From NCBI GenBank assembly GCA_026004535.1, contig BPJI01000001.1, positions 388,523-431,423 on the forward strand: a DNA stretch of 42,901 nucleotides, given 5' to 3'. This stretch comes from Candidatus Parcubacteria bacterium. GTDB taxonomy: Bacteria > Patescibacteriota > Minisyncoccia > UBA6257 > HR35. Each line of letters begins with the position of its first letter. The first letter of the stretch is position 1. Below, piece by piece: positions 5,231 to 34,872 of this stretch. The notes below the pieces were generated by a model. That model was not told the origin of the DNA. It saw nothing but the letters and a program-made list of their open reading frames with translations, and ran no database searches. Position numbers and translations under genes: made by a program.

Positions 5231-5304
5231 TCGGGGCAGTGGGACTCGAACCCACAACCTCTGGCTCCCAAAGCCAGTGCGCTAACCAATTGCGCTATGC
5301 CCCG
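5231..5304 (-). tRNA. tRNA-Pro(TGG)
   Basis: Minus strand CGGGGCA...CTGGC-TTTGGGA-GCCAG...GTGGGTTCGAGTCCCACTGCCCCGA; C1-G72 pair typical of tRNA-Pro. Confidence 0.93.
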
Positions 5305-12438: not shown

Positions 12439-12523
12439 CCAGGGGTGGCAGAGTGGACAATTGCACCTGGCTGTAGACCAGGCGGCCTTTGTGCCTGCGG
12501 GGGTTCGAATCCCTCCCCCTGGA
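12439..12523 (+). tRNA. tRNA-Tyr(GTA)
   Basis: CCAGGGG...CCTGG-CTGTAGA-CCAGG, long variable arm, GGTTCGAATCCC, CCCCTGG A. Confidence 0.93.
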
Positions 12524-12624
12524 CATTGTTAATGGACAGGGGGAGGATGAGAACCCCCTACAACCTAACGGGCAATTTAGTGATTAACAGGAACGAAAGC
12601 GTTGGAGCTTTATTTTTTAACACA

Positions 12625-12668
12625 GAACATCGAGTTTACCGTTTTCGAATCCCCCTGGACATTGTTAA
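12625..12668 (+). repeat. Truncated duplicate of the tRNA-Tyr T-arm/acceptor end
   Basis: gaacatcgagtttaccgttttcgaatccccctggacattgttaa; matches tRNA-Tyr 3' end plus its downstream CATTGTTAA. Confidence 0.8.
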
Positions 12669-32108: not shown

Positions 32109-32746
32109 ATAAAGAATTCTCTTGTGTGATACCTGCTTACAATGAGGAAGGAAGAATAGGTAATGTTGTAAGGGTGGCAAAGCGACATCCGTTAATTAAA
32201 GAAGTTATCGTAGTTTCTGATGGTTCAATAGATAGAACTGTTGAGGAAGCAAGACTTAATGGTGCCGATAAAGTAATTGAATTAAAGAAAAATATTGGTA
32301 AAGGCGGAGCTGTTTTTATTGGTTCAAATTTAGCTAAATCAGATTGGATACTTTTATTAGATGGTGACCTGATAGGAATTGAGCAAAAGCACATCGATCT
32401 ACTTTTAGAGCCAATTTTATCTGATAGAGCAGATATGACTATTGGTGTTTTAATCGACGAGCCATTAATTAAGATTTTTCCGGTAATTTCGGGTCAGAGA
32501 GTAGTCAAACGAGAATTAATTATTAAACACCCTGAATTAAAAGAAAGTCGTTTCCAATTAGAACTTCTCTTAAATAAATATGCCAAACAATTAGATTATA
32601 GAATCATTAATGTAAATTTACCAAATCTTAGTCATGTCAAAAAAGAACAGAAATATAACTTCTTAACTGTTTTGTCGCAAAGACTCTATTCATCTTCCGG
32701 TTACCTTCTTTATTTTTTTAAGAAAATAAAGACTTTAATAAAATGA
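32105..32746 (+). CDS. Family 2 glycosyltransferase
   Basis: CVIPAYNEEGRIGNVV, VVSDGSIDRT, WILLLDGDLIG. Confidence 0.88.
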   Translation: MNKEFSCVIPAYNEEGRIGNVVRVAKRHPLIKEVIVVSDGSIDRTVEEARLNGADKVIELKKNIGKGGAVFIGSNLAKSDWILLLDGDLIGIEQKHIDLLLEPILSDRADMTIGVLIDEPLIKIFPVISGQRVVKRELIIKHPELKESRFQLELLLNKYAKQLDYRIINVNLPNLSHVKKEQKYNFLTVLSQRLYSSSGYLLYFFKKIKTLIK

Positions 32747-34542
32747 CACCATTTTTAGAATTAACAATTATTTTTCTTTTTACTGCTTTGATCGCTTTTC
32801 TTTTCCGTCTTTTAAAACAGCCATTAATTATTAGCTATATTTTTGCTGGTCTAATCTTAAGTAATTATTTATTTAAATTTACCGAAACTAAAGCTTTAAT
32901 TGAAATATTTAGTGATTTAGGTATTGCTTTTTTGCTTTTTATTGTTGGTTTAGAACTTAAGTTAAATTCTTTAAGAGAAATTGGCCGTCAAGCAATTATT
33001 ATCGGTACTCTTCAAGAAATTTTTACCATCATAGCTGGGTTTTTGATTGCTAAGATTTTAGGTTTTGGTACCACTCCAGCTTTATATTTAGGAGCAGCAC
33101 TTTCATTTTCAAGCACGATTATTATGGTAAAATTAATTTCTGATAAGGGTGATATTGAAAAATTATATGGAAAATTAGCAATTGGTTTTTTGCTCGTTCA
33201 AGATTTAATTACAATCTTAATTTTGTTTTTGCTCCCATTTTTTAAAAAAGAAATTTTTAGCCAAGAAGCTTTTTTGCAATTATCTTTAGGCTTAATCGCT
33301 ATTCCTTTAATTCCTTATTTAGCTTATAGATTCCTACCGCGAATAGAAAAATTTTTAACTCGATCAGAGGAATTTTTATTTTTATTTGCTCTTGCTTTTG
33401 GTTTGGGTATTAGTTCCTTATTTAAATATTTAGGTTTGGGAATTGAAGCTGGTGCTTTGATAGCTGGTATTAGTCTTTCTAATTTAATTAGTTCAACTGA
33501 GATTGCCTCTAAATTAAAACCCCTGAGAGATTTCTTTTTAATTTTGTTTTTCATTTTAATTGGTTCGAAAATTTTTATTTTTCATTTTGATCAATATTTA
33601 TGGCAGGTTATAGTTTTGTCTTTGTTTGTTCTAATTGGTAATCCGTTGATTATGCTTTTGCTGCTCGGCCTTTTAGGTTATAAAAGCAGAACTTCTTTTC
33701 TTTTGGGTTTAACTTCAGCTCAGATTAGTGAATTTTCATTTATTTTAATTAGTTTAGGTATTAAATTTGGTCATTTATCAGAAGAAATTTTGTCAATTAC
33801 TGCTCTAGTTGGTTTAATTACAATTTTTCTCTCAACCTATTTTTTTGCTTATGCTGAAAAAATTTATCTTTTGTTAGAAAGATATCTTAAGATTTTTGAA
33901 AGAAAAAAAACAAGAGAGGAAAAAGAAGAAATCCCCAGTTATGAGGTGATATTATTTGGCTGTGATCGAATTGGTTATAGTTTTTTGAATGTTTTGAGAC
34001 CACGGATTAACACGGATTTAAGAACGAATCAACACGGATTATTTAAACCACGGATTGAGATGGATAAAAATAGATCACGGATTAACGCGGATGTAGGAAC
34101 AGATAAACGTGGATTAGCAATTAAAAATTTTCTGATTGTTGACTATAATTTCGAATTGATTAAAAAATTAAAAAAAGAGGGGTTTAATGTTATTTATGGA
34201 GATGCTGAGGAAATTGATTTTTTGCAAAGCTTAAATTTAACAAAGACAAAATTAATTATTTCAACTATACCCGATTTTGAGACTAATTTATTAATCTTGC
34301 AAGAGTATAAAAAAGAAAATCCTGAAGGAATTTTTATAGCTACTGCTTATCGACTCAATGATGCTTTGGATCTATATAAAAATAATGCTGATTACGTAAT
34401 AATGCCACATTTTCTTGGCGGAGAATTTGCCAGTAATATTATTGAAAAATTTGGTTTCAATAAAGATGAATATTTGAAACTAAAAGAAAAATCAATAGCC
34501 CATATCCAACAAAGATACCGACTTGGACATGAACATCCATAA
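32743..34542 (+). CDS. KefB-type cation:proton antiporter with TrkA-N domain carrying a repeat insert
   Basis: Many TM helices; GCDRIGYSFLNVL + insert + FLIVDYNFELIKKLKKEGFNVIYGDAEEIDFL. Confidence 0.9.
   Translation: MTPFLELTIIFLFTALIAFLFRLLKQPLIISYIFAGLILSNYLFKFTETKALIEIFSDLGIAFLLFIVGLELKLNSLREIGRQAIIIGTLQEIFTIIAGFLIAKILGFGTTPALYLGAALSFSSTIIMVKLISDKGDIEKLYGKLAIGFLLVQDLITILILFLLPFFKKEIFSQEAFLQLSLGLIAIPLIPYLAYRFLPRIEKFLTRSEEFLFLFALAFGLGISSLFKYLGLGIEAGALIAGISLSNLISSTEIASKLKPLRDFFLILFFILIGSKIFIFHFDQYLWQVIVLSLFVLIGNPLIMLLLLGLLGYKSRTSFLLGLTSAQISEFSFILISLGIKFGHLSEEILSITALVGLITIFLSTYFFAYAEKIYLLLERYLKIFERKKTREEKEEIPSYEVILFGCDRIGYSFLNVLRPRINTDLRTNQHGLFKPRIEMDKNRSRINADVGTDKRGLAIKNFLIVDYNFELIKKLKKEGFNVIYGDAEEIDFLQSLNLTKTKLIISTIPDFETNLLILQEYKKENPEGIFIATAYRLNDALDLYKNNADYVIMPHFLGGEFASNIIEKFGFNKDEYLKLKEKSIAHIQQRYRLGHEHP
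33998..34122 (+). repeat. In-frame CACGGATT-word insert in the TrkA-N domain
   Basis: ccacggattaacacggatttaagaacgaatcaacacggattatttaaaccacggattgagatggataaaaatagatcacggattaacgcggat. Confidence 0.88.
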
Positions 34543-34561
34543 GGTGTTATAATTTAACTAT

Positions 34562-34649
34562 GGAGGGGTGGCCGAGTGGTTAAGGCAAGGTCCTGCTAAG
34601 ACCTGCCCGGTTAAAAGCTGGGCCGTGGGTTCGAATCCCACCCCCTCCG
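34562..34649 (+). tRNA. tRNA-Ser(GCT)
   Basis: GGAGGGGTGGCCGAGTGG...AGGTC-CTGCTAA-GACCT, long variable arm, GGGTTCGAATCCCAC, CCCCTCC G. Confidence 0.93.
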
Positions 34650-34830
34650 TACGCAAGCATATAAAAATGAGCGAATGAATATAAAGCAAGGCAAACAAGG
34701 GGTGGTTTCGAATACGGTAATATCCAAGTCGATTATACAAAACAAATTTTTTTTATTTCATCATTGATAATTAGTTAAAGATTGTTTAATTGCTGTGGCA
34801 TTCAGCCACACGACACAGCAGACAAATAAA

Positions 34831-34872
34831 GAACATGGAGTTTATCGTTTTCGAATCCCACCCACTCCGCAT
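34831..34872 (+). repeat. Truncated duplicate of the tRNA-Ser T-arm/acceptor end
   Basis: gaacatggagtttatcgttttcgaatcccacccactccgca. Confidence 0.8.

Follow-up and report, generated by a model that had tools for sequence, protein, structure and literature searches.

The sequences behind tRNA-Ser(GCT) and tRNA-Tyr(GTA) in the window (the whole stretch of DNA analysed here, 42,901 nucleotides) are copies of one non-coding element, E, of approximately 105 to 125 bp. A profile search of the 844-kb host genome found 15 significant copies, distributed over 13 of its 45 tRNA genes and in every case at most 300 bp away on the 3' side; the well-preserved copies mostly have the last 20 bases of their own tRNA repeated at the border. 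E, which measures about 105 bp without its target-derived ends, is probably a lineage-specific, non-autonomous mobile DNA element. It would enter tRNA T loops by means of a trans-acting enzyme, the tRNA tail being re-copied and fold-back template switching giving an inverted arm and dimers.

The preliminary description of this DNA had reported that two different tRNAs are followed by the same non-tRNA flank, each flank carrying the acceptor end of its own neighbour. Both observations held: the window contains two matches to the flank (positions 34831-34859 at the Ser locus and 12625-12653 at the Tyr locus) compared with none in each of 100 shuffles, and the tRNA-end copy is 95% identical at Ser and exact (TCCCCCTGGACATTGTTAA) at Tyr. 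Across the genome, 10 of the 11 flank matches allowing up to 3 mismatches are found immediately 3' of a tRNA, so the flank is neither confined to these two sites nor placed at random. The features of the Ser locus are as follows:

34561..34650, plus strand: tRNA-Ser(GCT), intact host gene (ARAGORN, Rfam)
34630-34649, plus strand: duplicated stretch T, the tRNA-Ser(GCT) tail from T loop to discriminator (repeat pair)
34693..34813 (genome C1:423215-423335), minus strand: E_inv, inverted element copy (covariance/profile match 60 bits, E 6e-11; alignment)
34795..34809, no strand: hairpin GTGGC-ATTCA-GCCAC, centre of a head-to-head dimer (sequence and alignment)
34794..34869 (C1:423316-423391), plus strand: E_fwd, forward element copy (profile match 37.6 bits; alignment)
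34841..34854, plus strand: conserved end motif TTTATCGTTTTCGA (conservation across copies)
34850..34869, plus strand: T', copy of the tRNA-Ser(GCT) 3' end (19 of 20 positions identical to 34630-34649)

Those of the Tyr locus are:

12439..12524, plus strand: tRNA-Tyr(GTA), intact host gene (ARAGORN, Rfam)
12512..12546, no strand: fold-back palindrome consisting of the tRNA tail plus CATT, a 3-nt loop and the reverse complement, arm A (repeat pair)
12538..12661 (C1:401060-401183), plus strand: short copy of E (profile match 103 bits, E 1e-20)
12635..12648, plus strand: conserved end motif TTTACCGTTTTCGA (flank pattern match and conservation across copies)
12644..12668, plus strand: T' plus flank, copy of the tRNA-Tyr end (sequence repeat)

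The third tRNA of the window, tRNA-Pro(TGG) (5231-5304), has no element, and an Rfam search of the window returned tRNAs only. Downstream of the Ser(GCT) element, gatB follows after a gap of 60 bp. On the other side, repeats of the CACGGATTAACACGGAT type occupy positions 34000-34110 within an ORF (32743-34542) whose frame they leave unbroken; its product resembles a cation/proton antiporter that has a regulatory domain.

The host genome is a single metagenome-assembled genome (16 contigs, 97% complete), whose small size and gene content would suit an organism of the Patescibacteria type, and it was searched with a profile made from ten copies of E at a threshold of E < 1e-3. The statistics given here were largely chosen after the pattern had been seen, and the loci are partly non-independent. 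The host tRNAs are Ser (four), Leu (three), Tyr, Met, Cys, Trp, Val-TAC and Pro-CGG; their loci are dispersed, with distances of up to 400 kb, and no significant match was found away from tRNAs in this genome. A sense-oriented copy is present at each locus, the forward copy at Trp being recognised from the alignment only. tRNAs with a GTGGG/CCCAC T stem are hosts in 10 of 14 cases, as against 3 of 31 for the others (p = 6e-5). Class II tRNA structure was considered as the target cue, as the corresponding bias is real (8/10 versus 5/35); T-stem sequence explains the distribution at least as well, and a preference for the DNA sequence of the GTGGG T stem also accounts for the excess of Ser and Leu tRNAs. 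The suggestion in the preliminary description of a family of minimal elements targeting T loops therefore extends to the whole genome as far as location and T-stem preference are concerned, and active targeting, that is, movement of E to these sites, is what we infer from the sequences alone.

Reading outward from the tRNA, the order is tail T, a leader, arm A, a hairpin GTGGG-N6-CCCAC, the interior, a variable stretch, the right end TTTAYCGTDTTCGA, and T'. The leader mostly measures 2-12 nt, with about 50 nt at Leu-TAG and at three of the Ser loci, and the interior is conserved but unstructured (UACAACCYAAC, then AAACAGGAACGAGAGC). Short elements have a near-constant length of 119-127 bp from A through the end of T'. 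No genes, and no integrase, are contained in the elements (120-265 bp).

At 8 loci, 12-20 nt of the locus's own tRNA 3' end are repeated directly after the right end of E, the junction lying at the T loop. The host tRNA is complete upstream; a distal tail copy was recognised by eye at 9 loci, and in 8 of these the tail of the tRNA concerned is the single best match. The near side of the element also carries the tail in inverted form, a feature on which the preliminary description was silent and which is clear at Tyr, where the arms (12512-12527 and 12531-12546, 16 nt) are 88% complementary. Such an arm A, the reverse complement of its own tRNA end, is present at about 5 loci; its own tRNA is the sole best match in four cases (Leu-TAA, Met, Tyr and Trp) and tied in others. 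For T' and for A alike, none of 200,000 label shuffles reached the observed sum of own-tRNA matches, and only tRNAs that bear an element have arms complementary to their own tail. The state of preservation runs from fresh (Met and Leu-TAG, with identical tails) to decayed (Val, Leu-CAG and Pro-CGG). The gene following the tRNA-Met element (L084; G000 C1:350285), which looks like trmD (protein start MFFDIITLFPEAFSY), begins only 4 nt past T', so that the element forms its entire 5' flank. In addition, a 21-bp palindrome of the GTAAGACATCGTATGTCTTAC type adjoins the element-bearing tRNA-Met, tRNA-Cys and tRNA-Pro(CGG) loci (C1 near 350555, 321637 and 369911; L006, L008 and L019).

Two further features had been pointed out at the Ser(GCT) locus: a T-loop-like motif (GTGGTTTCGAATACGG, 34702-34717) and the GTGGC-ATTCA-GCCAC hairpin. 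Both are present, but rather than being separate features, they are the far end and the centre of an inverted second E, whose outer end faces tRNA-Ser(GCT) and reads GGATATTACCGTATTCGAAACCACCCC on the minus strand. The hairpin aligns with the GTGGG-N6-CCCAC hairpin of the short elements. Opposite-strand profile matches were obtained at Ser-GCT, Ser-GGA and Trp (60, 60 and 32 bits, respectively), showing that each of these three loci consists of two copies in head-to-head arrangement, with GTGGC-ATTCA-GCCAC at the centre. Among the three inverted copies the similarity is 82-88%, and the forward copies at Ser-GCT and Trp have a 41-nt internal deletion in common. In the tree, the Trp copy falls within the Ser copies (support 0.88), yet its left arm A best matches tRNA-Trp. 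Taken with the common deletion, this suggests that E moved and took up target-derived sequence.

Outside this genome, E was looked for in 245 genomes of the order, including 16 of the host's family, and in an evenly drawn set of 384 from the phylum, and it occurred in none of them; the two sets overlap partly and amount to about 600 genomes. When GTDB genomes and viral contigs were scanned for exact patterns, only one near-identical strain contig (L064, BPGX01000023.1) was recovered, apart from chance matches. This contig carries tRNA-Met with its element and is filed under a Bacteroidia metagenome-assembled genome with a KatS3mg name; it probably comes from a strain of the same organism and was mis-binned. 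Its tRNA and element are identical to those of the host genome, so no variation is visible there, and a divergence of about 5% is confined to the following gene, which is probably a recombined or divergent allele. Weak model matches in three genomes (G044, G068 and G181) are not accompanied by a tRNA (the nearest is over 1 kb away) and look like chance. Apparent tail pairs in genomes of the family proved to be tandem tRNAs, with the exception of a different cassette of about 1.1 kb in G002, behind tRNA-Leu(TAA) (L073, 1660-1748, minus strand; G002:C51:9300-11500). It contains one ORF of about 244-266 aa with no Pfam or NCBIfam match and has an exact copy of about 35 bp of the tRNA 3' end at its border; an ORF of unknown kind follows, and no further copies are found in the next 9.4 kb.

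In the host genome no transposase or integrase of E was identified. The only protein of the Phage_integrase family is a remote, chromosomal XerA/XerD-like recombinase (L078:1447-2328, minus strand), and Cas1 gave no match. The Y1 transposase domain (PF01797) is also absent, control genomes being positive; the Y2 transposase domain (PF04986) of IS91-type HUH elements, whose target is GTTC, matched neither the host genome nor any control genome.

We propose that an enzyme acting in trans, either a site-specific recombinase or a strand-transferase, would recognise the palindromic T arm GTGGG-TTCRAAT-CCCAC and join an end of E at the T loop, the palindromic centre of which is TTCGAA. Repair synthesis primed from the tRNA side would then re-copy the tail, and the tRNA would thereby stay functional. 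This tail-copying step is a conjecture, as a standard integrase would not leave each of many different tRNAs with a copy of its own tail. The palindromic dimers and the inverted arm might result from fold-back template switching, which would act on the tail and on E itself and has been documented for DNA replication in general (PMC8794818, PMC10766183). Collapse of long palindromes would then give the short form, and decay would affect the old copies (Val, Leu-CAG and Pro-CGG). The best reading is that the family is mostly decaying.

One alternative, which we regard as unlikely, is that the repeats are a feature of the tRNA trailer RNA, with T, the antisense A and T' forming a three-part switch of tRNA 3' processing or of expression of the next gene (trmD or gatB). 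The layout does resemble an RNA switch, all forward copies are sense-oriented just 3' of a tRNA, and A complements its own T' better than other T' sequences (permutation p = 0.003). The end motif is strongly conserved as well, departing from the consensus at 2.7% of positions compared with 14-37% elsewhere (8 copies) and changing less than T' in the same copies (3/112 versus 12/120, p = 0.03), which hints at constraint in place and leaves room for a function there. However, RNAalifold predicted no pair and no consensus structure for E, the interior folds no better than shuffles in any of the ten copies tested (z near 0), and good folding of complete elements is limited to the pairing of A with T'. 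Changes that arose after the duplication, in T' (Ser-TGA, Ser-GCT, Ser-GGA and a Tyr deletion) and in A (Leu-TAG), are mostly uncompensated, as judged by eye for the arms listed. T' or A has been lost from several copies whose tRNA is intact. Moreover, the direct repeat runs on past the tRNA end into non-tRNA flank at three loci, Tyr, Ser-CGA and Cys (p = 5e-5); at Tyr it extends for 9 nt (CATTGTTAA), a 4-nt deletion lying immediately before the exact repeat. The flank duplication, the Tyr fold-back, the uncompensated changes and the unfolded interior argue for DNA duplication with template switching rather than for a selected RNA, and the "tRNA-tail module" of the preliminary description, understood as an RNA, is thus disfavoured. 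DNA insertion at the T loop would be the better fit. Other RNA and recombination-site identities were rejected: for a structured RNA, ribozyme or group I intron there is no Rfam match in addition to the missing consensus fold; a guide RNA with the tRNA tail as guide, similar in its scaffold-then-variable-tail layout, was discarded in view of the pairing between the tail and the near arm; and in a possible integron attC site (GTTGGGC...ACCCAAC) the core motifs are, by eye, in the wrong order.

An equally doubtful explanation is that the copies are relics of ordinary tyrosine-integrase islands, one per tRNA, with attL/attR remnants left after the cargo was deleted. A T-loop crossover, a restored tRNA and a displaced 3' fragment marking the far border are the classical signature of islands that target the 3' part of a tRNA (Islander, PMC4383910), and one attP could account for the left hairpin GTGGG-CGAGAA-CCCACTACAACC as attL and for the right end TTTACCGT-TTCGAAT-CCCAC as attR. 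Independent deletions would hardly yield the near-constant length of the short copies, however, and one attP would bring one tail instead of the many different own tails present; the inverted arm A also falls outside that scheme. Unlike such islands, E comprises only about 105 bp, carries no integrase or cargo, occupies many tRNAs as one family and has its host's tail in both orientations. The least probable account, in which the host itself spread one trailer sequence between similar T arms by template switching and gene conversion, draws on the GTGGGTTCRARTCCCAC common to T arms, on the visible fold-back structures and on the ability of template switching to create and maintain hairpins (PMC8794818), but it has to contend with 13 dispersed loci, a well-defined right end of E and a tree that departs from the tRNA family for Trp.

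Compared with known mobile elements, a non-autonomous DNA element of this kind has partial counterparts. Casposons (Cas1 transposons) also insert at tRNA 3' ends with target duplication, their duplications being 14-15 bp long and both borders carrying inverted repeats (PMC6977970). In E the repeat is 20-48 bp and the near border has no conserved inverted repeat; with Cas1 missing from the genome and this geometry misfitting, insertion of the casposon type was rejected. MITEs, small mobile repeats and REP-BIME palindromes (PMC2229807, PMC3733652) are likewise short, non-coding, palindromic or head-to-head, and limited to one lineage, but are not, as E is, found strictly at tRNA 3' ends with copies of the host tail. 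E resembles MITEs in being short and non-coding and in having 15 copies in one genome and none in the relatives sampled; its inverted ends occur only in dimer copies, and no autonomous partner was found. A REP/RAYT system was rejected given the absence of the Y1 transposase. Rickettsia palindromic elements are lineage-specific, about 100-150 bp long, and reside in many genes and intergenic sites. E is similar in size and lineage restriction, and it alone lies exclusively behind tRNAs with copies of the target tail.

A bolder version of the mobile-element reading would make E a new kind of mobile element, in which target-primed synthesis and hairpin template switching re-copy the tail of any tRNA entered, in both orientations, so that a unit of about 105 bp could colonise many essential tRNAs without disabling any. 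We consider this rather improbable, though somewhat less so than the RNA and island explanations. Most tRNA-targeting elements carry the 3' end of one tRNA to spare an essential gene, and are hence bound to one target. E is found at 13 different tRNAs with the host's own tail in most intact copies, which means that the tail is either copied at insertion or kept matched by something equally unusual. If insertion does copy the tail, E would represent compact targeting of multiple tRNAs and offer, in a streamlined genome, a recombination system that is small and testable.
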